Assembly (NCBI GenBank): GCA_002104935.1
Contig: MCGT01000040.1
Location: 1 to 64,000, forward strand
Direction: 5' to 3'
Length of the DNA: 64,000 nucleotides
From: Hesseltinella vesiculosa
Taxonomy: Eukaryota > Mucoromycota > Mucoromycetes > Mucorales > Cunninghamellaceae
Shown here: positions 9,501-40,553 of the stretch, in pieces
How the letters are laid out: the number at the start of each line of letters is the position of its first letter
Numbering within the stretch: position 1 is the stretch's first letter
Program-made: the position numbers and the translations under genes
The notes under the pieces: generated by a model
What the model saw: the letters and a program-made list of their open reading frames with translations, nothing else
What the model was told of the DNA's origin: nothing
The model's database searches: none

Positions 9501-9870
9501 GCTCGTCTTCCCTGGTGTTTGACCAATTGGAAAACCGACAACGACAGGGCAAGCTTGCTGTTATCTCACTGAATGAGTTCAAAACAAGCAAGGTGGGTAA
9601 AAAAAAAAAAAACATGTCAGCAACGAGGTGGCTCATTCTTTTTCTTCAATGCAGCTCTGCTCTATCTGCCATGGCCCAACCAAAAACCCAGTCGTGAATG
9701 GTGGCAAGATTTATGGACTTCTGCGCTGCAGCTCCTGTGCGGTCATCTTTGACCGGGATACCATGGCGGCCTGCAATATGGTGTCCATTGGTCAACACTT
9801 TTTCCAACACAAGCAACGCCCCCTGGCCTTTTGCCCACGCCGACGCCCTCCAACCTCTCCTACCGCTTAG
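6536..9870 (+). pseudogene. Fanzor-like RNA-guided nuclease A (eukaryotic TnpB homologue), disrupted
   Basis: Six coding segments: 6536-6686, 6738-~7512, ~7581-8115, 8183-~9340, ~9364-9592 and 9655-9870, about 1,060 aa if repaired. In order it shows a zinc-knuckle-like motif (CATCGQMGHCSSASRLCP), a basic helical region, RuvC-I (AVDPGRRA), a very basic K/R segment, FGDGLKGRK, the EFKTSK motif, a zinc ribbon (CSIC...CSSC) and RuvC-III (DRDTMAACNM). These are the hallmarks of TnpB/Fanzor nucleases, which cut DNA guided by an RNA encoded at the 3' end of their own element. Two compensating frameshifts, near 7112 and 7195, bring stops (TGA at 7115) into a ~30-codon stretch that is otherwise homologous to locus B. 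The splice junction near 9310-9363 is also unclear. The catalytic residues survive, so decay looks recent; sequencing error is possible. Confidence 0.8.
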
Positions 9871-9890
9871 TTTTCATATTTATTCACCAA

Positions 9891-9947
9891 AGCAACCCTG
9901 CAAAAGGGGTTACCGTCTGCTCTGGCAAGAACGTGTTTAATGCTTTT
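9891..9947 (+). ncRNA. Candidate guide-RNA scaffold (omega-RNA/fRNA) of Fanzor-like A
   Basis: This 57-nt block begins 21 nt after the stop codon and is strongly similar to a 58-nt block at the same place behind locus B. It starts AGCAACC, forms a stem from AACCC (9894-9898) and GGGTT (9907-9911), then reads CCGTCTG and CAAGAACG and ends TTTAATGCTTTT. Similarity stops right after that T-run. The stem differs from B but stays paired, which favours a structured RNA. By analogy with TnpB and Fanzor, the scaffold would overlap or follow the ORF end and the guide would begin where conservation stops. This is inference from sequence only. Confidence 0.5.
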
Positions 9948-10113
9948 ATCCGGTAACTGGTGCTTTTAGCCAACACTTAACACACGTTCTGATTGGTAAC
10001 GGAGTTTTCTTTTTTTCCATAGTGGAGAACCAAGTCACAACCTCCTTTTTGTTTCTCCTCTCATTTTTTCTTTCCTCTCCATACCTTTTTTTTTTCTTCA
10101 TTGCTGATACGTC

Positions 10114-11856
10114 ATGAGTGGACAAAACTACATTGGCTCCAAGATCTCGGTAAGCCATACGTCAGTAAAGGGTCAATGATATTAGAGTAAAATTGGAAGA
10201 GAAAGAAGAGCGTGAGGATGTTGTTTGTGGTGGAGAAGAGGAGGTTTATTCTCCCAATTGTGTGTTGCATGGCAGCGGTTTATCAAACACTCCAACAGCC
10301 CATCATCTCGACTTATTCTCTTTTTTAAATTCGGCTATAGTTGATCAGTCTTAGCGACATTCGTTATGTGGGTATTCTCCATAGCATCAACACCAATGAT
10401 TCCACAGTGTCTTTGGAAAATGGTATGATAAAATGCTGACGTAGTTCAGTCTGAATGAATCACTCCAGCTCACTGATTAATGCTGCCGTTCTGAATAGTG
10501 TGCTCGTTTGGTACGGAAGGTCGCCGAGGAAAGCCTGAAGATGAAGTGCCAGGGTCTGACACTGTGTTTGATTTTGTTGTGTTCCGTGGCTCGGACATCA
10601 AGGATTTGCAAGTGTTCGAAGCTCCTGCCAAGCCTGCTCCTCAACCTCCTCAACCTCAGCTGAATGACCCTGCTATTCAAGTACGGTTTTTTTTTTTAAA
10701 AAAAAATGAGCAGTATCTGTTAACTTTTTTTTTTTTTTTTTTTTTAGAATTCGTCCGTGAAAGGCTACCCTCCACCACCTATGAACCCTTACATGATGCC
10801 TCCCTATCCTCCTCAGGCTCACCAAGCCATGTATTGGCAAACTCCAATGTATCCTGGCCAACGACCTCCCCACATGGGCCAACCTCCTATGCATCCACAG
10901 CACCCTCATCCCCAGCACCCTTCGAACATGCCTATGCCTCCCAGCGGCAACAATGCGCCCCTCCCTCCCAATGCCGTGAATGACTCGCCTAGCCAAGAGC
11001 GGTCTACTTCACAGTCATCAGCCTCTGTCCCTCCCCCAGCTCCAGCTGTCGATGTGCGAGAGACCGATCAGACACAAGAAATCGATGGTGCTGCTGTTGA
11101 ACATCTTGCCAAGCAAGTCAGTGAATTGGATATTGATACCAATGACGATGAAGTCATTCGTCCTACACATGCCCACCAACAACGCCAACCCACCAATGCT
11201 CCCGTCCCCGCCTCCAACAATAACAACAACAACAGCAACAACAACAACAACACGAACAACCGCAACAATCAACGTCATAGCAACTACCGCCAGCCCAACA
11301 ACAACGGCCGCCAGCAATACAACAACAACCGACAACAGCAACGTGTTGAGATCCCCGAATCCGATTTTGACTTTGAATCATCCAATGCAAAGTTCAGCAA
11401 GAACGATTTGCTCAAGGAATTGATGGGTGGTTCCAGCAGTGCCAATGAACTGGATGTCGACGACATTGTGCCTGTCGTGCAAGAAGATGTGATGATTCCT
11501 CCTCCCCAAGAAGACTTTTACGACCGATCCAAGAGCTTCTTTGACAATATCTCGTGTGAATCCAAAGAACGCCAGCAACAACAGGATGTTGACCGTCGCG
11601 GCAAGTACCACCAAGAACGTCGTTTGAACATGGAAACCTTTGGTCAAGCCACCGTTGACCAATCTCGTTATCGTAGCCATCGTGGCCGTGGCTACCGTGG
11701 TGGCAACCGCGGCGGCGGTCGTGGTGGCTATTACCGAAACAACAGCGGCAACAGCAACCGAGGCTATGGCTATAGAGTAAGTTTAAAGAAAAGTCGTGTA
11801 TGAACCCGGTCCTGATTCTTTTTCTTCTCCAGTCGCAACAAGTGGAATCGCAGTAG
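10114..11856 (+). CDS. SCD6: Scd6/LSM14-family mRNA decapping and translation regulator
   Basis: Five exons join in phase: 10114-10149, 10341-10422, 10499-10680, 10748-11776 and 11833-11856, giving 450 aa. The N-terminal Sm-like domain starts [12 protein letters not shown], continues [19 protein letters not shown] and ends [16 protein letters not shown], the exact LSM14 pattern. A proline/glutamine-rich linker and an N-rich run follow. The second half carries the FDF box ([12 protein letters not shown]), an FFD box ([12 protein letters not shown]), a TFG box (MMETFG-type, [12 protein letters not shown]) and an RGG-rich tail. In yeast and animals Scd6/LSM14 binds eIF4G and Dhh1/DDX6, represses translation and promotes decapping in P-bodies; this is family knowledge. 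The gene begins only 243 bp after Fanzor-like A on the same strand, so its promoter must lie in or near that element's 3' end. Confidence 0.93.
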
Positions 11857-12554
11857 TGGATTGCCTTTCCTTTTTTCTTTGTATACAGGCGCACATCCGT
11901 TTTAAATATTTCCCCGAGCCACCCACTTTTGATCCCATTTGTACATTCGTGTTTATGATCATCCAAGCTTTTTTTTCCGTTTTCCCCTCTTTGCCTCGAT
12001 TTTTTTTTTTTTTTAGCTTTTCCTTATCATGCATTCTTCTCGATGCCTCTCCCCCTGATTAAAGATGTGAACCTCATTTTATTTTTATTTTTTTTCGGTA
12101 ATGCTTTGGGACATGCGTTTCTATGAACCCTTTTTTGTGTTAGTGCAGGATTTTCAGAGTTATGCCAAAAATAATGTTGATTCAAGCAAACCATGTTGGA
12201 TTGTGCACGCAAGCTTTTTTTTTTTTTTTTTTTTTAAAAAAAAGTACCGCTTGATCTCCCCTCCTACCAGATTTTGGCTGGGGTGGTATGTTCTTATACA
12301 AGTGAGATCGTCAGGGAGTAGCAGCAGTAGAGGCTTGGGAGCCTAATCATGAACAATGGTGATCACATACACCTGCAATGGAAATTTTGGAGAGAATCGG
12401 CAAAGCTGAATTTTGGCCCATATTGACTCCCCCCTGTTTTCGATCAAAAATGGCCTAGGAACCGTCAGGGATTTTGAAAAACCGAAAAAGCATTGTAGAT
12501 CACTTTTGACCTGATGGATCCAATTCATTTTTTGTTTGGATACGGACACTGACA

Positions 12555-13150
12555 AAAGCTAATGATGGTGAAAAAATCACATCGATCGAACAAAGTTGCC
12601 CAGCCAAAGGGTTGCAAATCATGGTTTACAATCTCCGATCCCCAGCGAAAAAAAAACGTCAAAACCGACAAAAAGGCGGCTGACAGCTTTGAGATGTGAA
12701 AAAATAGTTTTGACTAGGGACCCAATCGGACAAACCGCTGAAATTTTCAAGTGCGCGAGCAAGCAAAATCAAGTGTGTGCGAAGTCATTTTGAGTGCATG
12801 TTTTGTAATAGCGTGGAAAATTTGGGGTGAATTCATTTAGATCAATTCTGCGCCGCGACTTTTGAGCAGATGGCCTGGGGGTTCCCTGATGAAAATGGCC
12901 GATTTTTTCAGTTCTTTAGCTGATGCATCGGAGATGTCAAAACGAAAGTGAACAAAAGCTGGCTGAACGATCTTCTTCAATCGACGTGTTTTTTTCAGGA
13001 TCATCATCATTCATTGGTTTGGGTATTTTTGCGTAATTGCACATGGATCTGATCACCCAAAAGTGCTGCGCAGTGTTTGCTTTTTTTTTTTTTTTTTACG
13101 ACAAAGGGGAAACCATATTCAACATCCGCGCAGTTGCTTTCTGTTTTCTT
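12555..13150. repeat. Dispersed repeat copy with internal inversion
   Basis: Positions 12721-12800 carry the family segment CCAATCGGACAAACCGC, and 12810-13150 continue colinearly with 58535-58880 (for example AAAAGTGCTGC and a long T-run, then CATCCGCGCAGTTGC). Positions 12555-12650 are an inverted copy of the middle segment (GGCTGGGCAAC in complement). So the copy is itself an inverted pair. Confidence 0.75.
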
Positions 13151-13959
13151 TTTTGTCTTTTCCCATGGGCTCTTTCATTTCAAAAACATAAAATGCATTT
13201 TATTGGGCGATTTCAAGCCCTGTGTCATGTTCATATCGTGAATTTTCTGAATCTCCTCGTTCATTTAAAAACCAAGCCAGAATCGGCGTCCACCGATTGG
13301 CTTCAAGCTTGGTATGCAGATAGTACATGTTGAGGGATGACCATGGTAAAAATCCTGGCCTTGATAGATGATTTGATGGCGATCTAGAGTTGACCAATTG
13401 GTGGAGTAGTATCTCCGGGAATCGAACACAGTGGAATGGCTTCCCTAAGAATCGAATGCAGAATGATCGCCGACTAGTAGGAATGGAGCAAAAGTAATCG
13501 GTGCTTGTAGCTTATAAGTGTTTCATTGGTTTGGAGGAGGGGGGGAGAGGTTTATCACTTTCGCGACATCTCTCTGGGAAGCGTTTATGCTCCGTAGCCG
13601 AAAAAAAGGTTAATGTGACCAAGATAAAAAAAAAGGTATCCCCAAGTCGAACGATGCCAACCGCTCAAAAGTGACAAATTAAAAAGGACAAATCGAGTGG
13701 TGAGAATTGCTTTGCGTGTAATGAGGTTTATTTTGCTTGCTGAAATTCTTTATCGTGGTGCCAGTGGCGCCGTCAGTCAGGGATGTAGCCATACCTCGAC
13801 CAGGTGATTATGCGCTGACCCCTCAGGAATAGGCGCCACTGCTGTGTTATCAATATTCTCAACTTCCTCTCGTTCAATTTTGAGATGGCAGTCTCATAAT
13901 GTTCAATGACCGTTTTCAGAGCTTGTATTCTTCCATTTTTTTAGGCAGCCTTGCGTAAC

Positions 13960-14199
13960 CTAGAGGACGCGCCAATCGTTGCTGAAAATCCTGCGTATTA
14001 ACTTGGTACCACCAACTGCAGAAGATTCGTAGGTGATAGTCACGGTAGATTGATTAGTGCCAAGAGGGTTGGGATCGTTGCATTTATTGGCACGGCCACC
14101 AGGAGGTCGATTTTGGTTGACAGCAGCGCAGAGAACACTGTGAATGCAGTTGCATAGTGGCTGCCCTGAGACAATAAGTCTTGGTAGCACCAGGGACAT
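13960..14199 (-). CDS. Possible small hypothetical protein
   Basis: An open frame of 79 codons with several cysteines (CNCIHSVLCAAVNQN) and a basic end. I recognise no domain, no conserved neighbour supports it, and a splice acceptor-like TTAG lies just upstream, so it could be part of a spliced gene or chance. It is listed because it is the only sizeable frame in a 3-kb gap. Confidence 0.15.
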   Translation of the reverse strand: MSLVLPRLIVSGQPLCNCIHSVLCAAVNQNRPPGGRANKCNDPNPLGTNQSTVTITYESSAVGGTKLIRRIFSNDWRVL

Positions 14200-15058
14200 G
14201 TTCTAAACAAGTGCACTGATATATCTGCGTGTCGTTTCCTTACGGGTCGTTGTCTTACCTGCCATTGAGACCTGGACTAACACGTACGCTTCGAAACCTG
14301 GGGCAAGTGCATTTTATTTAAATGCAGTAAACATGACAAAATGTTGCAGCATCAGCTTCAGGTTCGAAATGAATGTGAGCAAATCTAATGTTAAAAAGTG
14401 TTGCTTAAAATAACTAAAAACTTACTTTTCGCCAGGGATCGGGTTTACTACAACTCATTGAAGTAACTCGGTTTTCGCTTGTTCAATGGTGAGATCCTTC
14501 AGGTAATCACCATACATCTGAACATGGCAGAATCGATGATTGTAGATGATTTTGGTTGTGATATAAACACAGCGCGTCAATTAGAATCCAAGATTAGAAA
14601 AGAAACCCAAAAAAAAAAAAAGAAAAAAATAGCATTTGGCTGGGTTACATTTTACTTTGAGTTGCCCAATTCTTTGACAACTCTCACATATGATTTCCCC
14701 TCTCTTTCAAGCAGGCTGGCTAAACCCCATGTTCAAAAATAAAAGTATGAATATATTTAAAAAAAAGTACTTTCTGCAATGACTGACATCCCACTGGGGT
14801 CTTCATTTCCAACATTGGAACACAAGGCATTTGCGGTGGTTACACATTGCTTTGAAATTTGAGCTTCCGCACTGCTCTTGGTAGGGTCCAACGTAAAAAA
14901 GCTTTCATCGTTTCCTTTCACCGTGGCCAATCAAGGGCGGGATTTCCGCGATAGAAATTGAGAAGGGTACAAGGATCGATTCGTTTCTTTCTTTTCCTGC
15001 TTAATTTTATTTATTTATTTTTCTGCCTGAAATAATTATTAATACTGAACAAAAGAAC

Positions 15059-17488
15059 ATGGCTGATTTAACGATTAAAAACGATAAAGGAGAGCGTCTT
15101 GTGGGCATCCTAGAAAAGCCGGACCTCAAGGGCCGAGGTCTCATTCTAATTTTACATGGCTTCCTGAGTAAGCTCCCATCTAATTTGACTGAAAAAAAAT
15201 GCGTCCACATCAACCTGACCTCCTTTGCACGTTGATTCATGTGTGAACCTATCCTCTTAAGCTCACAAGGATAGTTTGTGGCAGAAAAAGCTGGCCCTTA
15301 GCCTTCCTTACCCAAGCTATCGGTTTGATTCTTATGGTCATGGCGACAGTGATGGTGTTTATCGATACCCAAACATCGTGGTAAAATCCGAAAAAAAAGC
15401 GTGGTTCTGTCATTGACTCATTCTTATTGATCTTGGTGTTGGATAGAAAGGAGCCGAGAACTTGAGAACGGTGGCAAGTTATTTTGACAGCCAGGGCTGG
15501 AAGATCTTTGGTGTTGTTGGCTATTCAGGTGGTAAGCCATAAAAAAGAAAATTGAAATTCTGCAAGCAACTGCCCCTTTTTTCTGATTTTTTTTTTTTTT
15601 ATCAGGGGCATTTGCTGTGCATGATTTTGTGCTCAACTGGCACTATCAAATTAAGCACGTTGTGAGTATTTGCTGTCGGTTCGAATTCGCCAGTGCTAAG
15701 CCAGCAGATGTCAGTCCTATTTGGCATAAGCAGATGAGTGAAAAGGTAAGCTTTTCTAATGTCACGTGAATCGTTGCGCTAATTTTTCTACTTTTGAAAG
15801 GGCTACTTTCTTTGGGGAGCTGTCTACAAAGGTGAAAAGCGAGTGGCTAAAATCACGCGGGAGCAAGTCAACGGCTCACACTCTTTGTATAACACGCACT
15901 GTAAGCAAAAACAGAGACAAAAAAAAAAAAAAAAAAGAGGAACTGGGCTGACAACGGCTTTTTTGAAAAAAGGCAAAAACTATCCTGCTTCCACCCGTGT
16001 GCTGATTGTGCAAGGCACTCACGACATTGTAAAATGCATGACAAGAAAAAAGCGGTGAAAAAGGAAAGGGCTGTTGTGGACTGAATTTTTTTTTTTTTTT
16101 TTTTCGTCAAAGATTGCCCCGGTTGATCAAGGCATCCAAATCCACGAGCTGATTCCGAATTCTGACATGCTGATTATTCCCAAGGCTGATCACCAGCTGA
16201 CGGGCTTCCATGATGTGGTGGTGGATGAGGTGATGGCTTTCCTTCCCTTTCCCATGCCCGACACAGCCGTTAGCGAGGTGACACCGGGTCAAGTCCGTGC
16301 AACCACGCCCTGGGAGCGCACCCGCATTTTTGGCATAGAGCGCTGGCCAGCTGTCCAGAATGTCAACAATTTCAGGGACTTGGGAGGTTATATGTTACAC
16401 AATCACCTTGGTTACGTCCGTGGCGGTGCAATCTTTCGCTCTGCAACGTAAGACATGCTCAACAAAAAAAAAAAAATGAAAACGAGCTCACGTTTTTTTA
16501 TTTGCCCTGTTAGCTTGAAAAATATCACAGCTGCCAACTGGCGATCTCTTGAAGCAATGCAGGTGCACACCATCTTTGATTTGGACGCTGTTAATGAAAA
16601 CCCTCAACCGAGTTTGGCTGCAGATGCGTAAGAAAAAAAAAAGAGAGTCACAAGGACGTTAACTCATGCTGGGTTTCACCCCTCAATAGCAACCGCCGAG
16701 GCGTCACTTATATCGCCATGCCTATCTATCAAAAGCTTGATCTTGAGCGCAAGGACAAAATCAAACGATGGAGGCAATACATGCAAGGAGCAGCTGGGTT
16801 TGTAAACGGTAAGCAGCACACAACCACCGATCACACCGCCAGCTTGTCCTCCATTACTGACTGTTTCTGGCGTCTTTTTTTTTGAAGTGTACATGGAATT
16901 CCTTCATACGGGTGCTCATGCCTATGGCTATATCCTTCGATATTTGCTGCAGCCTCAGGTATACAGCGTGTTGGCGAAGGGCAAAGGAAGCATTGTTGTG
17001 AGCAGTAAATGGGGTCGTGACCGTGTGGGATTGTTCTCCATGATCTTGCTCGGTTTATGCAAGGTAGAAGACGCCTTGATTGCCAAGGACTATGAATTAT
17101 CAGCTCAGGGAATGCCAGGTAGCGTTAAAAAAAAAGTCGAGAATCGGGGTCTGATATTTGTATGTCTGTAGGCGATCCCGAGCTCAGTGTTTTGGCCAAG
17201 TCTATGCAGTGCACTCTCGATGATGTCCGCCGAGCTTCTGCATCTCCGTAAGCATGTCTTTTTGTAAGAAAATACTGCGGCTCATCAAGTATTTTGGAAA
17301 TTAGGTACATGGCCATGATCAAGACGCTTGAGGTGGTGAGGAGTACTTATGGCTCGATGGATGGCTATGTGCAGCAAATGTGTGGTCTCTCGGGCCAAGA
17401 TTGTGACCTGATCCGCTCGCTCATGCAAAAACATGTTTTGAAAGTGAAGCCCCCAAGTATGCCCAAAGCCCCCACAGCCCACCTTTGA
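15059..17488 (+). CDS. Alpha/beta-hydrolase fused to a tyrosine-phosphatase-like domain (pseudophosphatase)
   Basis: Twelve exons join in phase: 15059-15167, 15262-15380, 15447-15531, 15606-15745, 15801-15900, 15973-16028, 16113-16447, 16514-16627, 16690-16808, 16888-17118, 17172-17247 and 17305-17488, giving 555 aa. Residues ~1-245 are an alpha/beta-hydrolase with oxyanion motif HGF, nucleophile elbow GYSGGA, and a plausible acid (GTHD) and base histidine (ADHQ). Residues ~270-540 resemble the fungal/bacterial Tyr-phosphatase-3 family (NFRDLGGY, GGAIFRSAT, TIFDLDA). The P-loop, normally HC-x2-GKDRTG, reads SSKWGRDRVG here: the catalytic cysteine is replaced by serine, so phosphatase activity is unlikely. 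The hydrolase part looks active. Substrates are unknown. The domain fusion is directly visible because one continuous frame crosses the border inside the exon 16113-16447. Confidence 0.82.
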
Positions 17489-18432
17489 ATCTGAGGCTGA
17501 AGGGACCTGTTCATGCAATGGAATAAATCTTACTTGCAGACAAACTGACACGAAATTGTTGCGAAGCCATGCTTACTGGATCGAAGAGGTGAAACTCCAG
17601 GATTTCCAAAACGAAAAGAAAAAAAAACGAGGGCGTTTTTTTTTTTTGGAGGTCTGACCATGCTCCAATAATTAGAGTTGTGCAACTGCCAGATCAAAGG
17701 CGTGGTAGGAAAGTGACACAGAAGCCTTTTTCAAAAAAAAAAAAAAGTTGTTGTGAGGTTGGTAAGTGAACGACATTGGAAAAACATTGTTTGGCCACGC
17801 CTCCTCCGAAAGGAGAGCAAAGTGAAGAGAAACTTGCAGCAGACGTGCATTTTTTTTTTTTTAAAAAGTGGTCACTGGGAAGCCACCGGTAAATCCTGTC
17901 GATCCTATGATTTTTTTTTTTTGAGAAGCTGCCCATCAAAGAGAAAACAAACACTGTGATGCTTTGCCTGGAAACTGTTCACGTGATCAAAAGGACTTGA
18001 TAAAAAAGAACATCGAAGAATTAAAAAAATTTGACGCGTGTTTACTTTATCGAGGCAACCTAAAAATATCGAGGTCGCAAACCCATGTAGGAGCATGAGA
18101 ACAAAAAAAAAAAAAGGGACGAGAAAAAAAAGGAGATTCGCTTGAAAAGCGTATGAGGGTGTGGGAGAATGGAGCATGGCAGTTTTGACCAGGCGCCCAT
18201 TGGACGGTGAAATTGAGAAACCAAAAGCATTAGACGTGGGTCAACTCATTGGTTCAAAAGTGTTTGGCAACAACAGCCATTGGTTTATTTCCTTTTTTAT
18301 GCAGAGCGGAAAGTAAATGTCTCCCCCAAAAGTCTTTTTTTTTTTGTTTTTCTTGTATATTTTTTCTTTTTCTTTCAACACAATATAAACTACTTTCTCT
18401 TTTTTATTAATATTATTAAAAAATTATACATT
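17489..18432. other. Intergenic, homopolymer-rich
   Basis: About 0.9 kb with several A- or T-runs of 10-14 nt (17637, 17735, 17850, 17910, 18100) and no reading frame with recognisable content. The last ~130 bp before 18433 are T-rich and precede the next gene's start. Confidence 0.4.
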
Positions 18433-20339
18433 ATGGAAGATATCGCTATGAATGGCCGAGCCTCGTCACCAAGTCTGGACAAGGAAAAGCAAGTCAAACG
18501 GCAGCGGCGCAATTCGGTGTCTACTCAGACCGCTCCTTCGCCACCCAAGACACCTCCTCATCAAGATAAAGAAATCACGCCAAGGCTCGTCAGCCAAGGG
18601 GAGTTTGAGTCTGACTGTCACTTTTATCCTCGTGTGTTGAATGCTCAAATCCATCCATTGGTGCAGTCCTTCTTAACCCTGGGCAACGACCGCATTATTG
18701 CCCGATACACCCACTTGAATCCAAGAGTCAATCCTGATCACTTGAAAGAAATTCTTTCTTATCAACCCAAGCATTTCCAATGGGCAGGTAAGAAAAAAAA
18801 AAAAGGAAGACGTGTGGTTAAAAAAAGGAGGGTAAGCTCGAAGTTTTTTTTTTAAACCTCTCTTCATTAGGTTCGGATCTGTTTAATGTGACGACAGCCA
18901 CTGGTCAACGGCAAATGATTGTTATTGAAACAAATTCCTGCCCTTCGGGGCAAAAATCCATGCCACTGCTGTCTGAAACAGATGAACACAATGAGCAAGG
19001 TGGTTACCGTGTGGTCATTCAATCTGCCTTCCAAGAGCAACTCTCCAAAGCTGACCAATCTCTTGGTGGCCTTGCTGTGATTTTTGACAAAAATCCCATG
19101 GAGTCCTCCGGCTATGCTGCGGTGTTGGCAGATGTTGCTAAAGAAAACGTGTGGTTGGTCGAATGGAAAGCTACAGACCCAGACCCCAGCGTCAAATGGG
19201 TGGACCGTGTTCTCCATGTGCGTGACATGGACATGAACTGGCACCCCATCCGTGCTTGTTTCCGATATCTCACCCAGAAGCCATGGAACCGCTTCCCTCT
19301 CAACAGCCGAACCATTATCATGAATCAAATTGTAAGCTGTCTTGCTGGTGGCCGCAACAAGATGATGGCTGCCCGTGCCTACGATTTTTACAACTCAGAG
19401 CTTGCCGACATTGGCCTGCATATCCGAACCCCTGAAACTATCAACAATGTCACTCGAGGTGAAATTCCACTCTGGCTCCAATCCATGGGTGGTCACGCTG
19501 TACTCAAAGTGCCATACAGCAATGCCGGTAAGTCACTAGGAGAAAAAGGAAAATAGGGTGCTGATGCTTTTCTCTCATCCAGGCCAAGGCGTGTATACCA
19601 TCACCAATCAGGATGAATTGGATGACTTTATGCAACAGGATCACCACTATGACAAGGTATATTTGCCAACTGGAAACTGTGGTGATGAAACTAACTTATT
19701 TTTTTTTTGGCCCAGTTCATTGTCCAATCGCTGGTCGGCAATGCCTCCTGGTCAAGTGTGACACGATCTGGCAAATTCTATCATGTGGGCACTATTCCTA
19801 ATAAGAAGAACAATACATATGTCAGCGATTTGCGAATGATGGTGACAGGTAAAGCATAAGGAGTGAACTACAAAGAAAGCCGATTGACTCTTCCCCCCAG
19901 GAAACTCAAATGGTTTCCGACCAATCTGCATTTATGGACGAAAAGCAAGGCTTCCTTTAACAGCCAAATTGGACCCTCATGGTAAGAAAAAAAAAAGATC
20001 GAGACCCAGTGGCGGATTTGACTGATGCGTTTCATGTTTAAAACAGCCAACACGTGGGACATGCTTGGCACAAATCTGTCCATCAAACTTCCAGATGGCA
20101 ACTGGACAACAGACTCGTCACGATTAATATTGATGGACCGCAAAGACTTCAACCAACTGGGCCTCGGAATTGACGATCTGATCGACGCCTACATTCAAAC
20201 CGTCCTGGCCGTCATTGCTATCGATAAAATGTCTTCCCGACTCGTGGAAAGCGGTCAGTTTGACTACTCTCTTTTCCAAAGTTTGAACCCTGACGACGCC
20301 CTGCTGGAAGAAATCCAGCAAGCCAATCAAGACATGTAA
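18433..20339 (+). CDS. Uncharacterised ATP-grasp-like protein
   Basis: Six exons join in phase: 18433-18787, 18871-19527, 19583-19656, 19716-19848, 19901-19981 and 20047-20339, giving 530 aa. The first ~75 residues are polar and disordered. The core includes [19 protein letters not shown] and [16 protein letters not shown]; the latter resembles the glycine-rich ATP-binding loop of ATP-grasp enzymes. It is followed by [12 protein letters not shown] and a basic GRKARLPL stretch. I do not recognise the family by name and cannot state a substrate. No signal peptide or membrane helix is visible, so it is probably cytosolic. Exon joins are unambiguous. A glutathione-synthetase-like or carboxylate-amine ligase activity is possible, but this is only inferred from the loop. 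Confidence 0.75.
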
Positions 20340-20563
20340 ATTGCCATTTCCCCCTATTTTTTTTTTTTTTTTTGCAGCTTTTATACATTTTTTTCAAAAA
20401 AAGAATCATGCATCGGTGTTTGAAATAAAGAGATTCTGGACAAAACCACCTTCACCAGACACAAAAAGGGAGTGGTCAACTGCACCTCTCCTCTCTTTAT
20501 CTCACCATTTTTTTCTTTCTTGTTTTCTTCGGCATCTTTTATCGAAAAGCATATATCAAACGG

Positions 20564-22510: not shown

Positions 22511-22677
22511 AGGGGAACTCCTTGCCACAACCATTACCCTAATATAAAGTTATAGCATCTACCATCGCCTCGCTCTGATACCATGCTCTCGAAGGAGAAA
22601 AAAAAAAGATCAGGAATGGGCCAACGCATTTTTCTACTTTATATATCCAGCGCTGTTCTAACAAAAGGGGTGAGGTA

Positions 22678-25331: not shown

Positions 25332-27335
25332 CATCCAGATCGGTCACAGTCAGCATTATTGACAGCCTTGCAAGTTGGCACTATTGATTGAAAGGGAAAA
25401 AAACGTGAGCCAGTAATACAAAACGTTCAGCACTAGGTGCATGTGCATTTTCGCCGAGTCAAGTTCTGTGTCACTTTTGCTTCACGAGGATGATGACGTG
25501 AGAGAAAGGTGCTCTTCCATATTCTGGAGGTAGGATGTCCTCAATTGGCCGGATATTCAACAGCCAATGTCAACCGCCAATCCGTCAAGGCAGTTGACCG
25601 AGGCACTGATACACAACGAGTAGCTCCATCAAGCAGCCCAGCACTAGTCCAGAGGCATTCACATGATGGCCGACCTTTCAATCACCAGCAACGGTTCTTG
25701 AATTGTCCCCCCTCCAACCGGCAACGCTACACACTACGGCGTGTTCAACGGTTGGATTCTGGGTTCACGGTTCGCAATACCTACTCCTTTCATCAATCAT
25801 CCAGCAAAGCCATAGAGCAACACAAAAACAGAGACTGGCATGGCAATGGCACATGCACCGGAGGACTTCCCTTGATCAAACGGTAGCAGCTTGCTGAAAT
25901 AAAGAAAAAGCAATAAAAAAATGAGCCTTTGCAATTGTTGTTATAGCATTTTTAGTTTCTTACAGTAACGATCCAGCCCAAAGGTCCAGCTTGCTTCGCA
26001 AGGATGATGACGTGAGAGAAAGGTGCTCTTCCATATTCTGGAGGTAGGATGTCCTCAATTGGCCGGGAGATTCAACAGCCAATGTCAACCGTCAATCCGT
26101 CAAGGCAGTTGACCGAGGCACTGATACACAACGAGTAGCTCCATCAAGCAGCCCAGCACTAGTCCAGAGGCATTCACATGATGGCCGACCTTTCAATCAC
26201 CAGCAACGGTTCTTGAATTGTCCCCCCTCCAACCGGCAACGCTACACACTACGGCGTGTTCAACGGTTGGATTCTGGGTTCACGGTTCGCAATACCTACT
26301 CCTTTCATCAATCATCCAGCAAAGCCATAGAGCAACACCAGATCGGCCGCAGTCAACATTATTGACAGCCTTGCAAGTTGGCACTATTGATTGAAAGGGA
26401 AAAAAACGTGAGCCAGTAATACAAAACGTTCAGCACTAGGTGCATGTGCATTTTCGCCGAGTCAAGTTCTGTGTCACTTTTGCTTCACGAGGATGATGAC
26501 GTGAGAGAAAGGTGCTCTTCCATTTTCTGGAATGTAGGATGTCCTCAATTGGCCGGATATTCAACAGCCAATTATCAACCGCCAATCCGTCAAGGCAGTT
26601 GACCGAGGCACTGATACACAACGAGTAGCTCCATCAAGCAGCCCACTACTAGTCCAGAGGCACGTGAGAGATGGCCGACCTTTCAGTCACCAGCAACGGT
26701 TCTTGAATTGTCCCCCCTCCAACCGGCAACGCTTCACACTACGGCGTGTTCAACGGTTGAACTCTGGGTTCACGGTTCAATTGGCGATAGCTACTCCTTT
26801 CATCAATCATCCAGCAAAGCAATAGAGCAACACAAAAACAGAGACTGGCATGACAATGGCACATGCACCGGAGGACTTCCCTTGATCAAACGGCAGCAGC
26901 TTGCTGAAATAAAGAAAAAGTAATAAAAAAATGAGCCTTTGCAATTGTTGTTATAGCATTTTTAGTTTCTTACAGTAACGATCCAGCCCAAAGGTCCAGC
27001 TTGCTTCGCAAGGATGATGACGTGAGAGAAAGGTGCTCTTCCATTTTCTGGAATGTAGGATGTCCTCAATTGGCCGGATATTCAACAGCCAATTGTCAAC
27101 CGCCAATCCGTCAAGGCAGTTGACCGAGGCACTGATACACAACGAGTAGCTCCATCAAGCAGCCCACTACTAGTCCAGAGGCACGTGAGAGATGGCCGAC
27201 CTTTCAGTCACCAGCAACGGTTCTTGAATTGTCCCCCCTCCAACCGGCAACGCTTCACACTACGGCGTGTTCAACGGCTGAACTCTGGGTTCACGGTTCA
27301 ATTGGCGATAGCTACTCCTTTCATCAATCATCCAT
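25332..27335. repeat. 1-kb higher-order tandem array (two X-R-Y-R units)
   Basis: A ~350-bp block R (starting near GGATGATGACGTGAGAG, ending near TTTCATCAATCATCCA) occurs four times, at about 25487, 26005, 26490 and 27011. The spacers alternate: X (GATCGG, CAGTC, CTTGCAAGTTGGC; 25343 and 26341) and Y (CAGAGACTGGCATG, TTGTTGTTATAGC; 25827 and 26840). The full period is about 1,000 bp, present twice. Copies differ by scattered substitutions (for example TCACATGATGG versus CGTGAGAGATGG), and copies 1-2 and 3-4 share different variants. Confidence 0.9.
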
Positions 27336-27494
27336 CTAGGAAGAACAAGATGAAAAAAAAAACAAGATGGAAGTTTTTTTTTTGTGCTGCTAAAAATGCC
27401 AGCCGCAGCTTCAACGTGACCGAAAAAGCGGGTCGACCAAAAAAAAAAAAAAAAGGGTGCTTGTTTTCCTTGATCACTCGTCTCTGCTATCAAC

Positions 27495-29343
27495 ATGGAG
27501 TACTTACTTAGTGTGAAGCCATCGACTTGGAGATTGCAAGAAACTTATGAAGCAGTAGCAAAAGAATCATCCTCGTTTGAAGCTACTAAAGAAAATCTGC
27601 ATGACTTGTTTACCAAAATGGCCACCTATCCCTGCACAGCCCAGTCAACAAAGAACAAAGCAAAGAACATCCTCAAAAGCTGGTCGAAATTATGCCAAGA
27701 GCTAATCCCCATCCCAGCTCATGCCTCTGATGATTCGCAGGCGGCGGGCATCAGCAATATGCACGATCCTCATCATGAAACCACCCAGCGCCCACAACTA
27801 ACTGAGGTTCACTTCAATAACGTTGAAAACATCGAGAACATTGAAAACATCAATTCCATCACAGTCCCAGCTACCCCACAACCTCAAGCTTCGCAACGTG
27901 ATGATGATTCTGGCTCAGACTGGAATGATGATCCTCCTCTGCACACCACTTTTGACTTTTTTGATACCAACACCGAGGACAATGTCAACGATATGACTGA
28001 ACAGGCTGCCAACAACTTCACCGAAGAATCCTTTGAGACCATTGATCACCATCCCGACCGCTCCTTTGTCTACACGGTCCATGCCATTGAAGAATGGGTG
28101 GAGGACCCCTCTGAAGAAGTAAAATGGTTGCAGAATTGATTTTTGTTTTTACGTTGAAGCCTTGGCCCATCTCACACTGTCTATCTTATTTTTTATTCTT
28201 CTAGTGGTGCGCCTTGTCTTTGGACGTCCTTCAAGAAGCCAAAGATTTTCGGTCAGCCTCCGTGCATCTCGCTGCCAAAGGAAACCTGCCAGACTGCCGT
28301 GACCTCTCCTTGGACTTCATTTTCACGATGTTTGTCTCAAGCCCCGACTGCTTCACCGGCTACTTGTCCCAAGCCAACCGATCGTTGCTTGAAGAATCCA
28401 TCAAGCCTTTGAAGGATGAACACTGGCCTGACATGTCCCAGTCGAGCCTGGCAGCTTGGTGCAACAAAGTAACAGACGTCCGATACCCCACCTTCAAGAA
28501 CATCCTGTCGTTGTGCACCAGCTTCATTCAAGAAGCTCTGCAATCTGGTAATGATGATGATCTTGTTGCAAGCCATATCATGACATCTCTGTAAGTCCCC
28601 GATCCAGACCTTAGGCAAAGCTGACTTTTTTTTTTTTTTTTTTTGCGCAGTTCCCCTCGCCTGCTTCGCCAAACTGACAGCTCGTTGGAAGACACCTTTG
28701 CGCACGTCTACATTGACCCCATTGTAGATTCTCTTTTTTCGAACCCAATCTTCCGTCAGCGCTGGTAAGAAATCAAAGTGAACTTCGATGCGCGTGCAAA
28801 AATCTGACTTCCTGACAACCTTTGTTTTTAAGGGCAAACCAAAAGCTGAACGCATCATCATCCCTCAAGCCAGACTGGGTATTGTATATCAAGCCTCGCC
28901 ATACTACCCATGAAGTTGTGACAATGGAGATCAAAAGCCCAGGAAAACAAAACCCCGCGCCTCCATCCGATTTCGTCAAGATGGCCTTGGAAATGAAATC
29001 GATGCTGCTGTCGATGACCAACTTGAAGGAAATGGCTCGCACATTCGGCATCCTGGTCGAAGGTCAGACACTTCGAACCTTCGTCATGGACAACCCCTCC
29101 CGGCACGTGTTCCGGTTGACGGAGCTTGGCTCTTCTTCGTTGATCACCACTTTGAATCAGTTTGGCGGCTTTCCTCTTCTGATCAAGCAACTGATCCAAA
29201 TACGTGACATGGCCCTGGACACCGCCAAGCAACTGGAAGCACACGATCTTGCTTATGCAAAAGGGATTGGCAAGCGACCCTTGGTGTCTGATGATGAAGT
29301 CAACTCGCGAAGATACACCCGACAGAAGCGACGTTCTGACTAG
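27495..29343 (+). CDS. Uncharacterised protein with a PD-(D/E)XK-nuclease-like core
   Basis: Four exons join in phase: 27495-28118, 28205-28590, 28651-28764 and 28833-29343, giving 544 aa. The N-terminal 70 residues are helical, followed by a long acidic, disordered linker (asparagine/glutamate repeats such as NVENIENIENIN). The second half contains DTFAHVYIDPIVDSLF, then LKPDWVLYI and VVTMEIKSPGK: the spaced acidic residue, D and ExK fit the PD-(D/E)XK nuclease pattern, followed by FGILVEGQTLRTFVMD. The end is basic (RRYTRQKRRSD), possibly a nuclear signal. I do not know a named family. A decayed, rearranged second copy lies directly downstream, which suggests local duplication of an accessory gene. 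Nuclease activity is inference from the motif alone. Confidence 0.7.
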
Positions 29344-29564
29344 TTTACCCAATTTCCCTCCATACCATACCTTTCCTGCCGTCTGTGCAGCTTTCTTTTC
29401 TCCCCCATGCCTTTTGTACGTATTTCTTTTGTTCCCCCTCCCCCATATTGTTCATGCTTTTTGGCACTTCTGTAAATAAAATCTGTTGCCTCACCTTTCA
29501 CCGTTATCAGGAAGCATCACTGGCGAGAGGAAATGCACATCATAGACAAGCTTGGTCAAATGGT

Positions 29565-29720
29565 TGGCATTCGCCCAAGCACAAACTGGGAAGGTTGTCC
29601 TCCACTCTAGCTCTACGCCACGCTATCCAAGGATATGCTGCTTTCAGTCATGACCATTACTCATGTTTGGATTCGACGCCTAAGCAGTTTGGAGTCGATT
29701 CAGTTTATTACAAGAGGAAA
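29565..29720. repeat. Direct repeat shared with 24895-25040
   Basis: The segment with TATCCAAGGATATGCTGC and GCCTAAGCAGTTTGGAGTC is repeated in the same orientation 4.7 kb to the left, on the other side of the tandem array and the PD-(D/E)XK-like gene. The two copies bracket that gene block. Confidence 0.8.
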
Positions 29721-29849
29721 AGAAAAAAATCAAGATTATAAAACGCCAGCCGTAGCTTTATTGTGATTAATAAAGCGGGCTGACCAAAAAAATAAAAGCG
29801 TGCTTGTTTTCCTTGATCGCCCGTCTTCTTTTCCTGTTTTTACTATCAA

Positions 29850-31150
29850 CATGGGGTACTTACTTAGTGTGGAACCATCGGCATGAAGTTTGCAAGATGG
29901 CTACGAAGCACCGGCAAAAGACTCATCCTCCTTTAAAGCTGCTAAAGATAAGCTGGGAGATTTGTTTATCGATATGACCACCAACGCCTGTTTGTCCCGA
30001 TCAGTAAAGAGCAAAGCTAAAGTCTTCGTCAAACGCTGGTCGAAATTATGCCAAGAGCTCATCCCCATCCCAGCTCATGCCTCTGACGATTCGCAGGCGG
30101 CCGGCAACAGCAACATGCACGATCCTCGTCAAGAATCCACCCGGCGTCCATATCCAACCGAAGTGCACTGCAAAAACTTTGAGAACGTTGAAGACTCCAA
30201 GAACATTGAAAGCATTGACAGGGACAATTTCGTTCCACTGCCGCCCTAGCTGCAACCCCAAAGTTGTCACGACATGATAAAATTCTGGTGGCTCTTTGTT
30301 TTGTTTTATACTGACACCGAGCACGAGGTCAACAATCCTTTGCAAGGCTGGTAACAGCTTGGAGTTGATAAAATGGTTGCAGAAATGATTTATTCTGGGA
30401 TGGGGATGAGCTCTTGGCATAATTTCGACCAGCGTTTGACGAAGACTTTAGCTTTGCTCTTTGCTGATCGGGACAAACAGGCGGTGGTCATATCGATAAA
30501 AAATCTCCCAGCTTATCTTTAGCAGCTTCAAAGGAGGATGAGGTCCTCACCATCTATTTTTATATTTTATTGATAAAGTGGTGTGCCTCGCCTTTAATGA
30601 GAGGTCACAGCAGTCTGGCAGGTTTCCTTTGGATCGAGAGTCTTTTGCTTCTTGAAACACCAATGTCCAACCCACCTGACTAGCTCTGGCTCCCGCTAAT
30701 TTCGGCCCTAATACGCCTTGCAAATGTCACCAAGTGAATAGATAGGTCATGGATATCAGATCTTGGATATCCGGATTTCATATTCACGTTGTTTGCCTCA
30801 AGCCCTGACTGCTTCACCGGCTACTTGTCCCAAGGCAACCGATCCCTGCTTGAAGAACTCATCAAGCCTCTAAAGGATGAACCCTGGTCTGACAGGTCGC
30901 AATCGAACCTGGCAGCTTGGTGCAACAAAATCACAGACGTCTGATACATTTCCGTGACACAACTATCCAGATGCTCTATCGCCTTGCTCAGGAATTGGAT
31001 GAACGTGGCGTGCTTGGACAAGAACCTACAACAGCCTGTCTCCTGGGTGCCATGACGAGGCCAATTCACACTTCCAACATGCCCTCTTTTTGTTACTACA
31101 ACAGGGTCGAACTCCCGAAGGTTCGCCCGACAGAAGCGATACCTCTCATC
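29850..31150 (+). pseudogene. Rearranged copy of the PD-(D/E)XK-like gene
   Basis: The region repeats the neighbour gene from its leader (GGGTACTTACTTAGTGTGGA) through the N-terminal helix, the AHASDDSQAAG stretch and part of the linker, but the frame is broken: the initiator region is ATGGGG followed by an early TGA near 29885. From about 30392 to 30545 part of the N-terminal exon appears inverted, and 30600-30660 holds another inverted fragment of the second exon. Positions 30780-30945 resume in direct orientation (SPDCFTGYLSQ-like). The ExK core is missing. The 3' flank (31160-31260) matches the flank of the intact gene (29450-29550). This is a duplicated, then scrambled copy. Confidence 0.85.
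29921..30545. repeat. ~150-bp near-perfect inverted repeat
   Basis: Positions about 29921-30080 and 30394-30545 are reverse complements with only a few differences (for example CAACGCC versus GGCGG, a 3-nt deletion). The ~310-bp spacer holds the linker of the broken gene copy. The arms are much better conserved than the rest of the copy. Confidence 0.85.
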
Positions 31151-31264
31151 CTTCCATGCGTATTGTTCATGCTTTTTGGCACTTTTGTAAATAAAATCTG
31201 TTGTCTCCCCTCTCACCGTTATCAGGAAGCATCACTGGCGAGCGGAAAATGCGCATCATAGACA

Positions 31265-31886
31265 AATTTAGTTCCGGGTAGGTTTTTTTTTTTTTTTTCC
31301 TTCACCCACCAGCATTTGCGCGCTTCAACGCTGCCGAGAATTGGAGTCCAAAAAACTGAAACGATGGGCTAGCTAGTCGACATCCGTTTGATTTTCAGCG
31401 TCCATCCTGAAGAGGAGCTTCGTATCCAAGAGTGCCATGGAGCCACTGACGGATCTGAGCTAAAATTGACGGTCAGCTAGGGTGGCATGTGGAGTAACCC
31501 GGGGTTTTGTAGCAGGATCTCAGTCGGGTCAGTCAAGAGAGAAACGGTATGATGAAGCAGGTTGATGGTAATGGCACCAGCGACGGTGTGGAGTGAAAGG
31601 GAGGGGGGCAGACATGTTACACACGGGCGGGCTGTTCATGCTTGTTCGAGGAGCGGCAAAATGGCAAGCCAGCCAAAAGCAACGGAGGTCCGCGCCCCTC
31701 ACTTCTTTGGCTTATTTTCCATCGTTTTCTTTTTTATTTTCCATCATCCAAAAAAGCTGTTAAAGTCCACCTCCCTTTAATTACTTGGATTGTTCCTTGC
31801 TGATACCTGTTTTTATCCCTTGCACGTACGTCTCTTCGTCTTGCCTTTTTTATTTTTTTTTATCGAAAGCCATCCACATTTCCGCC
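31265..31886. other. Intergenic, upstream of the NDR kinase
   Basis: No gene supported. A T-run lies at 31282-31298. The last 150 bp are pyrimidine-rich, like most gene leaders in this window. There is no recognisable repeat. Confidence 0.4.
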
Positions 31887-33782
<1,896 letters not shown>

Positions 33783-33959
33783 TCCTGTCCTTTATCTCCA
33801 TACCAGAAATAAAGATAACATGACTGATTAGATCCACTCTTTTATTCCTGACCGCCATTGTTTAATTGTGAAAAGAATGAAAGAAGGAAAAGGCAGGGAG
33901 TTGGGAGAGGTGGAGAGTTCAAGGGTATAGGAAAAAAAAATAAAACTTCTGGTAACTTG

Positions 33960-36366
33960 TTATACACTGTCTTCGACCATGGTCATGGAAGTGTAGGTGA
34001 TCCGGCCATTAGGAAGGTCATAGAGGGAATAATACAATGTTGAAGCCGGCGACCAAAATGTGGCACAGTTGTTCCAGCATCCTTGGTCAAACCTGTTGCT
34101 TCGGATTTTACCACGCAAGCACAGGCTGTCGTCTTTGTCATCTTCTTGCTGGCCAGCATCGGTCCAACCTTGCCGGGCCATACTGATAGGTTTTCGTGGG
34201 ATCCTTGTCTGAAGGTACTCGTACCGTCGCGCGTTGACATTCTCGTTGGTGGTGACGGCGACCATGATTTGATACAGCTGCACCACCAGCAGCAGGCTTA
34301 CCCAGATCAGCTGCAGCGCAGCCCATATCGCCAAGGAAAATGTGAACGAGTCATAGGCAAAGTAGCTACAGAGTGTGGCACCGAGCTTGCACGGGTCCTC
34401 TGGGCCCAGATCTTCGGTTGGCGTGGCGTTGACAGTCAGATCTAAGAAAAATTCACGATGAAAGAATGCGGTGAGCGTCATCGGGGTGCTTGGTCCCAGC
34501 TTTTTTTTTTCTATCCTTACATTGATAGCATAGATAGTCGTAGGTCAGAATACAGATCACCAGGTGGAGTAGAAAGAGAATAAAGTGCCGATGGTTTTCC
34601 AGACCAACGCAGTTGAAAATCCATGGACAGTGGCTACGGAATGGGCGTGAGTTAGGGTGCTGTATAAACCGCAGTATGGTGTTCGATCGGTGACTTACTG
34701 GTCAAACTTGGCCACGCAACGCTGGCATCGTTTGCAGTGTTTGGATCTCAGCGGCTTGCGGATCTGCGAAAAAAAAAAAAGTGCATAGGTATCATTGCGG
34801 GGTGGGGGGTTTCCTTCCTTACCATGCAAGTAATGCAAAAGTGTCTCTGGTCCAATTTTCCATCCGTGACCAAGTCCAGCATGACAGCTTGCTGTTCGTC
34901 TAGGGTGCTGTCGCTGATAATAAATCCAGGGTTGGCAAGCAAGGCCTTGTAAAAAAACATCATGGAAACGACAAACGTAAGAACAAACAAAGCGTTCCAG
35001 CTGAGCAGGTGCGATGTTCCTATGATATACGTATTAGAAAGGGTGAGTAGTGAGTTGGGAGGGTTCTCTCTGTTACCTTTAGCCACCGTCCAAAGCCAAT
35101 TGAGCAATACCCAATAGGCAGATGCTTGAAAGATGCCGCTGAAATACGGCGATCGTGTTAATTCTTCGGGTACAGGCGCTGGCAGCAGTACATAAACCAC
35201 AATCAAATGCATGACCACGGCTTCAAGAGGTACCAGTACAAGGGAGGCAAACCATGAGTACCGGTTGAAAGTGGCAAGGATGAAAGGGAGACAAACGAAC
35301 GGAAGCAGTAAGATCAGCATGTTGCGGCGTTTCTAAAAAAAAAGTAGTGGTGTCAGTGTCATAGTACACTGGTCGAATGAGTATATGAACCAACGGACCT
35401 GCTCAGCCGGGTGGATGGATGTTTGAGCTTGATGGATAGCTTGGCGCCATTTCTTTTTCATTTTCATGTCGTCAACGAGGTCCAGTACAGTGCGGCCGTG
35501 TTCGTCGACATAGTCGACGCGAGCGCCGCGTTCCAGTAAGAGTCGCATGCAGCCCACATTGCCCTTGGCGACGGCCCAATGGAGACTTGTTAGACGAGCT
35601 GCATCAATGGCATGAATGTCAGCCCCGTGTTTCAGGAGCATGTCGACACAGACATCGTTTCCATTGTAGGCGGCCCACATCAAAGCTGTGTGTTGCTCTC
35701 GGTCACGTGCATCCACGTCGACTTTGCTATCGCACATCAATAGGTACATCACTAGCAGTGCATTGCCAGAATGGACTGCCAGGTGCAGCGCATTGTAGCC
35801 ATTTTCGTCCGTCAGTAATGGGTCGGCTCCTTCCTTGATCAGCCAGTGTGTCGCATCCAAGCAGCCAGACCTTGTCCCAAAAAAAAAAAAAAATAGCATC
35901 AGTGAGTCTCACTTTTTCACTGCCATGGAGTTATCGATAATCAAACCTTGTTGCCCAATGTAATGCTGTAGCAGCCACTTGGCCCCCAACAAAGTCAACG
36001 GTAGCTCCACGGTCAATCAAGTACTTGACACAAGCAGCATGATTCCCAAGAGCCGCATAGTGTAGAGCGGTCACCCCACTGGCATCCGTGTCGTGAACAA
36101 ATGCCTTTTGGCCGTCCAATATATCTTGCAGCAGCACAAACGATCCTTGATGGGCAGCTTCAAACAAAGAGATGCCTGTTAAAGCAGAAGGGAATGGGGC
36201 GTCAGCATCAAAAAATGGTAAAAAGGGAGAGCTGTGTGTCTTTTTCTATATCTTTACCAGGTTCATTTTTTGGCTTGCCAATGGGTTCTAAGCTACTCGA
36301 CATGGATCTAGTATCGTCCATCTCATCAAGTAGCAGCGGTTGGGTAACCTCCTCATCCATAGGCAT
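33960..36366 (-). CDS. AKR1: Ankyrin-repeat DHHC palmitoyltransferase (Akr1/ZDHHC17-like)
   Basis: Eight exons, from the start: 36258-36366, 35947-36175, 35399-35870, 35077-35332, 34823-35019, 34699-34763, 34521-34633 and 33960-34441, giving 640 aa. The N-terminal half has about five or six ankyrin repeats ([60 protein letters not shown]). Membrane helices follow, then the catalytic cysteine-rich domain with [19 protein letters not shown]; the DHHC motif is created across the 34699/34633 splice junction. Akr1 proteins sit in the Golgi and attach palmitate to membrane-associated proteins such as casein kinase Yck2; this is known for yeast. Both ankyrin and DHHC parts appear intact. Confidence 0.94.
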
Positions 36367-36856
36367 GACCAATTAAACAACAAAACAAAATGTATCACAA
36401 TGGAAAAGTAAAAAAAAAAAAAAGGGGGTGGGACCCAAATTTAGCCAGCTTTTTTTTTTTTTTTTTAACACTTGTGCGCTGCCATTAACCCCACCTGCTT
36501 GAGCTACATTAGCTGGTACGATAGAACATGAATGAGTGATGTTTGATCCTGAGAATGGTCTATACAAATCTTTTATTTATTATTTTATTAATTTAATTTT
36601 TCGTTTACGGCCCACCGGCCAGCGATTCCTGTCAGCTTGTGTGCAAAAGCTGGCGTGAATCGGCGGAGTTGGAATGTACGACCTGGTTTCTTGCACTAGG
36701 GGAAAAAAGAAAAATCAGCATCCAATCAAATTGCCCCTTCCCCGTACCCTAACCAAACAATTTTTTTACCTGCAAAAGCATTAAACCGTTCTTGTCAAGG
36801 GACAGACGATAACCTTTTCTAAAAGGTTGCTCTATCTAAAAAAAAATAAAACATGC
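36367..36856. other. Intergenic between AKR1 start and Fanzor-like B end
   Basis: About 490 bp. The right part holds the candidate guide-RNA scaffold of locus B (36774-36831). A/T runs lie at 36410 and 36450, and an AT-rich stretch at 36560-36600. The AKR1 promoter must be here. Confidence 0.5.
36774..36831 (-). ncRNA. Candidate guide-RNA scaffold (omega-RNA/fRNA) of Fanzor-like B
   Basis: Read on the minus strand, the block begins AGCAACC 25 nt after the stop codon and forms a perfect stem AACCTTTT / AAAAGGTT (36811-36828). It continues ATCGTCTG and CAAGAACG and ends TTTAATGCTTTT. It aligns end to end with 9891-9947 of locus A with about one gap, although the stem bases differ in paired fashion. 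The sequences diverge abruptly after the final T-run, which would be the guide start (positions below 36774). The functional assignment is inference by analogy to TnpB/Fanzor systems. Confidence 0.52.
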
Positions 36857-40425: not shown

Positions 40426-40535
40426 TTTGCTGAACAAGAAAAAAAAATACAGAAAAGAGAAGGAAAAAAAAAGGGCAAGACGAGAAAATGAGGTTCTCCA
40501 CTGCTCACGCTCACACACGCCCTGCTCATTTCTAT

Positions 40536-40553
40536 TATATTAGCACTAATATA
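40536..40553. promoter_or_regulatory. 18-bp perfect palindrome upstream of Fanzor-like B
   Basis: TATATTAG-CA-CTAATATA is perfectly symmetric and lies 111 bp upstream of the ATG of locus B. It could be a binding site for a dimeric protein, part of a core promoter, or an element end. No second copy was noticed near loci A or C. Confidence 0.3.

Follow-up and report, generated by a model that had tools for sequence, protein, structure and literature searches.

A predicted terminal intron between the probable guide-RNA scaffold and the end of Fanzor transposons in Hesseltinella vesiculosa

Fanzor elements in the window

The window analysed here, the first 64,000 nucleotides (nt) of contig MCGT01000040.1 of the mucoralean fungus Hesseltinella vesiculosa, harbors three genes, named A, B and C, for Fanzors (Fz), the eukaryotic homologues of the nuclease TnpB; A and B reside in transposons with defined ends. 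In both transposons a conserved hairpin block, which we read as the candidate scaffold of a guide RNA (omega-RNA or fRNA), follows the stop codon of the Fanzor gene, and an intron-like stretch separates it from the right end of the element. We describe both features and their counterparts in the genome, an intron-rich sequence of 27 Mb in 85 contigs.

The Fanzor A gene contains introns and occupies positions 6536-9870 of the plus strand (stop codon at 9868-9870). The B gene lies at 36857-40425 of the minus strand (stop codon at 36859-36857), where six exons, open throughout, encode a protein of 1072 amino acids. The third gene, C (51578-54823, plus strand), has seven coding exons and a TGA stop codon split by the junction to the following exon; the C locus overall spans 51578-55187 and has a right end, AATAAAGTGTA, different from those of A and B. 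PF07282, the Cas12f1-like TNB zinc ribbon, is matched by all three proteins; A exceeds the curated cut-off with its spliced C-terminal part (E=2e-8), and B falls 0.3 bits short of it (E=1e-5, 26.0 bits vs 26.3). Over this C-terminal part, A and B are 49% identical, and C and A 25%. The RuvC motif and TNB zinc ribbon expected of a Fanzor were found; the motifs DPGRR, C-x2-C...C-x2-C and DRD align in A, B and C, and their catalytic assignment is presumed here. A profile built from A, B and C and compared with PDB gave TnpB-type nucleases as its first four matches (E 0.003-0.008), followed by coiled-coil chance matches, and in NCBIfam the last exon of A gave only a weak match to IS607 TnpB (E=0.0048). 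Single-exon protein searches found no family, the full B sequence retrieved no sensible chain from PDB, and in two proteome-scale searches B matched no relative.

Relative to B, the A copy of the window has a break in its reading frame near 7117 (7110-7120), and this particular copy may be non-functional. One of the A coding introns, at 9308-9360, is apparently of the GC-AG type (GAG↓GCAAGT...TTGTAG; here and below the arrow marks a splice site).

Transposon A extends over 5963-10024 on the plus strand, with the inverted ends CACTATGGAAAA on the left and TTTTCCATAGTG on the right, where similarity among 23 near-full copies is lost. Transposon B (36694-40824, minus strand) ends in CACTACGGG on the left and CCCCTAGTG on the right; its right end was derived from copies and its left end by reading the window against one further copy. 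The last bases of A are TG, followed by GA (10023-10026, plus strand); the copies diverge from here, which is about where the guide is predicted to start. The last bases of B are likewise TG, followed by CA (36692-36695, minus strand) in the window copy and in L039-L044, and its guide is also predicted to start at about this point.

Several features of these ends deserve mention on their own. GA follows the right end in 22 of the 23 near-full A copies, and the left edge of A differs from copy to copy, often being a few bases short and joined at short homologies. Duplications beside the A ends, judged by eye, measure about 4 to 12 bases, and some copies are devoid of them. This behaviour is unlike that of a standard cut-and-paste transposon. 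No second gene stood out in the open reading frame (ORF) lists of the elements, for which no dedicated transposase search was made. The idea that the whole of element A is an intron was rejected, as no GT occurs in the first 20 bases of its left end.

A conserved fold between the stop codon and the transposon end

The preliminary description had located the block at 9891-9947 (plus strand) and 36774-36831 (minus strand), which proved correct, as did its distance of 25 nt from the B stop codon; in A this distance is 20 nt and not the 21 nt given. The likeness of the two blocks clearly exceeds chance, since a local alignment spanning the stop codon to the scaffold end scored 35, and the best of 2000 dinucleotide shuffles reached 17. 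The exchange of both stem strands with pairing kept, AACCC/GGGTT in A vs AACCTTTT/AAAAGGTT in B, was also borne out, and further families carry AACAC/GTGTT, ATCCC/GGGAT, ATCCA/TGGAT and AACCATTC/GAATGGTT at this place. However, the remaining flanks, said earlier not to align, do so in part: about 38 nt at the right ends (9987-10024; 36731-36694, minus strand) align with a score of 21, which none of 2000 shuffles reached. The stretch between the block and this right end gave no alignment (score 4).

Using RNAfold, A and B adopt the same three-way junction, composed of a stem P1 that encloses two stem-loops, SL1 and SL2. Scaffold A (9889-9952, plus strand) comprises P1 (9889-9893/9942-9946), SL1 (9894-9899/9906-9911), SL2 (9912-9920/9925-9936) and a linker to the donor (9947-9952). 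In scaffold B (36770-36833, minus strand) the corresponding parts are P1 (36833-36829/36779-36775), SL1 (36828-36822/36817-36811), SL2 (36810-36801/36796-36785) and the linker (36774-36770). P1 reads AAAGC/GCTTT in A and AGAGC/GCTTT in B. RNAfold also predicted a like-shaped junction for L075, L074 and L102, which represent three families of divergent sequence; the minimum-free-energy structure of several further A-type and B-type variants is different. Rfam had no match in the window at gathering thresholds.

Because MAFFT puts SL1 and SL2 of distant families out of register, pairing was counted in a 26-sequence alignment made by hand. Of 130 SL1 cells, 119 are paired, a value reached by none of 2000 column shuffles; for SL2 the figure is 76 of 80 (reached by 14 of 2000).

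In the youngest A copies, the scaffold segment AGAACGTGTTTAA (9928-9940) is nearly complementary to TTAACACACGTTCT at the right end (9977-9990). In the GTAATT subfamily this complementarity is less marked, and B lacks it; the pairing could compete with the junction fold in an unspliced RNA.

Genome-wide, the block was found at at least 30 A-type and at least 12 B-type places, counts that are lower bounds. Fanzor sequence directly upstream or in the same element accompanies 29 of the 30 A-type and 9 of the 12 B-type copies (38 of 42). The preliminary description had held that copies with no nuclease gene nearby would argue against a scaffold, and the four places with no detectable Fanzor sequence do so weakly; for the three of B-type, the upstream sequence examined comprised about 400 nt, and the A-type one (L035) retains DNA-level similarity to other parts of element A. 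These four copies do not refute a scaffold, because Fanzor-less "ghost" copies with a working omega-RNA are described for Spizellomyces in the main text of Saito et al. 2023 (PMC10432273). The expectation that the stem be preserved in additional copies held in further families and failed in some copies, such as L036, L045 and L049, mostly in degraded elements.

The scaffold is also a region of low variation. Among the 23 A copies its mean difference is 3.2%, compared to 8.4-11.9% in three coding introns and 6.8-7.8% in two coding exons; the left and right ends differ by 4.4% and 2.2%. The seven variable sites of scaffold A are 9898 (wobble-tolerant, in SL1), 9899 and 9906 (the innermost SL1 pair), 9904 (loop), 9934 (bulge), and 9951 and 9952 (linker).

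A number of results weigh against the reading of the block as a folded scaffold. The bulges in the hand-made alignment were also skipped by hand, which is a weakness of the pairing counts, and P1, pairing in 103 of 120 cells, is not significant (135 of 2000 shuffles reach this value). Double changes, seen in three of five SL1 pairs and in two SL2 pairs, are common among shuffles (245 and 312 of 2000, respectively, and 245-315 of 2000 overall), so the evidential weight lies on the pairing itself. For the 65 nt preceding the donor, the folding energy mostly does not stand out (z from +0.2 to -3.6, n=16; A -0.5, B -1.2), and when the spliced RNA was folded with its actual flank, the minimum-free-energy structure kept the junction in A and lost it in B. 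Furthermore, in the same 23 copies the 435-nt 5' leader (3.4%) and the interior of the predicted terminal intron (4.8%) vary little too, indicating that low variation is not specific to the scaffold.

The equally invariable A leader would suit a different explanation, namely that the block is a subterminal transposase site acting at the DNA level or the residual homology of related elements. Subterminal sites can occur at the distance seen for this block, about 77-133 nt from the right end of A, and A and B share ancestry. Nevertheless, the aligned A copies have one block per element and the pairing is kept across families. Residual homology is further disfavoured because A and B have diverged to 49% protein identity and have lost alignment in the intron interior, a distance at which sequence free of constraint would no longer be alignable. 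We therefore regard this explanation as highly improbable.

Together, the position between ORF and right end, the covarying junction fold, the low variation and the SL1 plus SL2 layout, as in PpFz1 and SpuFz1 (see below), support the interpretation already offered in the preliminary description, and the block is very probably a Fanzor omega-RNA scaffold, the best reading of these data. As far as the folding models indicate, a conserved structured RNA is thus encoded between ORF and right end, and we infer that this RNA belongs to the 3' untranslated region of the Fanzor transcript.

Splice signals at the transposon ends

A scaffold should be contiguous with the guide supplied by the flanking DNA, but in A and B 72 and 76 nt, respectively, separate it from the end of the element; contiguity would be attained only after splicing. 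The separating sequence has the appearance of an intron, a feature that the preliminary description missed. The predicted terminal intron of A has 70 nt (9953-10022, plus strand; GTAACT ... CTGAT ... T-rich ... CATAG) and that of B 74 nt (36696-36769, minus strand; GTAAAA ... CTGAT ... T-rich ... CCTAG). The border between scaffold and donor reads CCG↓GTAACT in A and CAG↓GTAAAA in B, and a branch-like CTGAT motif precedes CATAG↓TG by about 31 nt in A and CCTAG↓TG by about 20 nt in B. Conservation between the two elements forms a mosaic of block, donor, non-aligning interior and right end.

These signals were compared with the 12 coding introns of B and C. The latter measure 53-84 nt, a range similar to the terminal introns, and the terminal donor of B, GTAAAAAA, is identical to one of the B coding donors. 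Only 5 of these 12 have a CTRAY motif, which is therefore no strict rule of this host. Judged by sequence, A and B thus carry spliceosomal intron signals at a host-like length, comparable to the coding introns.

We also looked beyond A and B. The genome has 131 matches to one Fanzor exon; 3' regions were taken for 60 of these protein matches, besides the A-type and B-type copies, and the resulting 61 sequences, with C included, were grouped in 26 clusters. By eye, 12 of these clusters (L059, L084, C, L080, L097, L076, L101, L102, L106, L075, L096 and L104) include at least one member with a GTAAG donor directly 3' of the SL1 and/or SL2 hairpin, the folds being least clear in L101, L080 and L104; the cluster members L074, L081 and L098 have no intact GTAAG. 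The remaining 14 clusters are singletons, including L051 and L053, which keep GTAAGC/GTAAGT next to damaged stems, L079, with a B-type donor, and L050, L052, L056, L077, L099 and L108, which are decayed or have no recognisable scaffold. An automated count of GTAAG in 28 representatives (one per cluster plus A and B) gave 19 occurrences in the sense strand, in 11 representatives, vs three in the antisense strand; 300 shuffles gave a mean of 3.65 and a maximum of 10.

In C, the scaffold is located on a separate untranslated exon that follows the junction-spanning stop codon (54880-54957, plus strand, 78 nt); this exon has its own SL1 plus SL2 fold and ends in CAG↓GTAAGA. Regarding the acceptor, most copies among those listed for the 13-member L059 cluster end in TACTAAC...TTTTTTTCTGTAG↓TG or CTGCAG↓TG, and the right end of L101 reads CTAAC...CCTCTAG↓TG, so that in these two, as in A and B, the acceptor is found at the last element bases. 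A probe of 61 bases from the L059 right end matched 15 right ends and no left end, which implies, within the sensitivity of the search, that the acceptor does not belong to a long inverted repeat in this cluster. As a separate observation, the scaffold of L080, L085, L105 and L101 may be followed by a micro-exon of 5 nt, AAACG, with an intron on either side (CAG or TAG↓AAACG↓GTAAG).

Other observations speak against terminal introns that serve the guide. Both the A and the B donor lack a G at position +5, and in the 23 near-full A copies the donor is GTAACT in nine, GTAATT in 12 and decayed in two, these being weak donors; among older A-type copies it is GTAAGT (L032, L033 and L035), GTAAGC (L034) or GTAAAT (L038), or is lost (L036 and L037). 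A search for a genomic copy of the spliced junction, performed for A only, found none. Read outward, the left ends of A and B are T-rich with YAG and thus partly acceptor-like (A has no CTRAY there, and B has one further away), so the acceptor of these two elements is not fully separable from the inverted repeat, with which its signals partly overlap. The best 3' splice site of C, L084, L102 and L106 precedes the right end by tens of nt, and a second step would be required for any junction at the extreme end. Finally, the singletons L054, L055, L057, L058 and L078 have recognisable stems and no usable donor.

If the RNA is not spliced, the block would form the beginning of a longer guide RNA, with the inverted repeat of the right end also belonging to the scaffold, and the splice-like signals would be incidental. 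The strong conservation of the right end agrees with this, and a scaffold of that kind was reported for insect-virus Fanzor1s in the main text of PMC10711439. The unspliced A transcript, moreover, is predicted to pair its scaffold with the right-end region, another point against splicing; this pairing, however, is not common to B, whose unspliced fold differs. An unspliced RNA also leaves the excess of GTAAG in the sense strand unexplained, and the intervening stretch is not conserved between A and B. For these reasons we consider it unlikely, if the most serious of the alternatives.

A second possibility accepts the terminal intron as real and assigns it to the Fanzor mRNA only, where it would act in 3' end formation, control of nonsense-mediated decay or splicing into host exons, the guide arising from another transcript. 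A splice site downstream of a stop codon could affect mRNA decay, and in other families further introns lie in untranslated regions. On the other hand, the donor is directly 3' of a scaffold hairpin in the 12 clusters described above, and the acceptor of A, B, L059 and L101 sits at the last element bases, the position required for a guide junction. This explanation seems improbable to us.

A possible spliced route to Fanzor guides

On balance we favour a model, built on sequence evidence, in which the spliceosome joins the scaffold to the guide and removes the transposon end from the guide RNA. The proposal is made because in published Fz1 systems SL1 and SL2 precede the guide, whereas in an unspliced RNA more than 70 nt of poorly conserved sequence would intervene. 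Fold, constraint, splice signals and element edges are read from the DNA; from them we infer transcription, splicing, loading and targeting. The transcript would run beyond the right end into the flanking DNA, the spliceosome would excise the 70-74 nt carrying the inverted-repeat end, and the scaffold would be joined, via TG only, to the flanking sequence, which would become the guide. The mature RNA would consist of the scaffold of about 64 nt plus TG (about 66-68 nt) and then the guide. Every insertion would thereby gain a guide against its own empty site, in an RNA free of the inverted repeat. We lean, if only slightly, towards extending this model to the whole Fanzor radiation of the genome, in which diverse scaffold exons with a common fold and a donor would yield guides by pre-mRNA splicing, with the transposon end as acceptor and each insertion reprogramming the guide.

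Among characterized Fanzors, SpuFz1 of Spizellomyces punctatus resembles A and B in that its scaffold follows the Fz ORF, close to the right end of the transposon. In the main text of Xu et al. 2024 (PMC11423790), the omega-RNAs of PpFz1 (from Parasitella parasitica) and SpuFz1 have 75 and 90 nt, with SL1 and SL2 before the guide. The layout is alike, with an SL1 of seven base pairs there, 6 in A and 7 in B, plus a short SL2, and so is the small total size, about 66-68 nt plus guide being predicted here. In contrast, the published scaffolds run directly into the guide, and here 70-74 nt with splice signals intervene; also, P1 encloses both stems in A and B. The comparison with PpFz1 follows its published description. 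In the main texts of PMC11423790 and PMC10432273 the word "intron" is absent, and "splic" appears only in references and in a remark on cyclophilin.

For the reRNAs of insect-virus Fanzor1s, such as the SfAV Fanzor, the main text of PMC10711439 (NAR 2023) predicts that the inverted repeat and the target duplication are part of the scaffold. That system shares with ours the predicted three-stem shape and a non-autonomous element encoding just Fanzor, and we count as a further likeness that its RNA reaches about 15 nt past the element. The difference is that here splicing would take the inverted repeat out of the RNA; neither "intron" nor "splic" occurs in that main text. Among the matches listed in the open-access literature, no report of a spliced omega-RNA was present.

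The bacterial IStrons offer another comparison. They resemble A and B, as predicted here, in carrying a TnpB-type nuclease and in a right end that serves as 3' splice site, and a guide-RNA conflict is known from them. A, B and IStrons have in common the combination of a transposon with an intron (for IStrons, see the survey PMC4227781). However, in IStrons a self-splicing group I intron removes the element, whereas here a small spliceosomal intron would lie inside the right end; a group I intron ribozyme was not found in the window by Rfam at gathering thresholds.

Fanzors need a guide derived from the flank of the element, and at the same time the element has to keep an end that a transposase can recognise. 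Published Fanzor1s are reported, in the main text cited above, to build the repeat into the RNA; splicing it out, if true, would be a different solution, one that frees the transposon end from the guide-RNA fold. The model predicts split RNA reads linking the scaffold to the transposon flank, and searches expecting a contiguous scaffold and guide could miss or misdefine such RNAs in intron-rich genomes. If true, it would also mean that a genome-cutting guide is tied to the spliceosome of its host.

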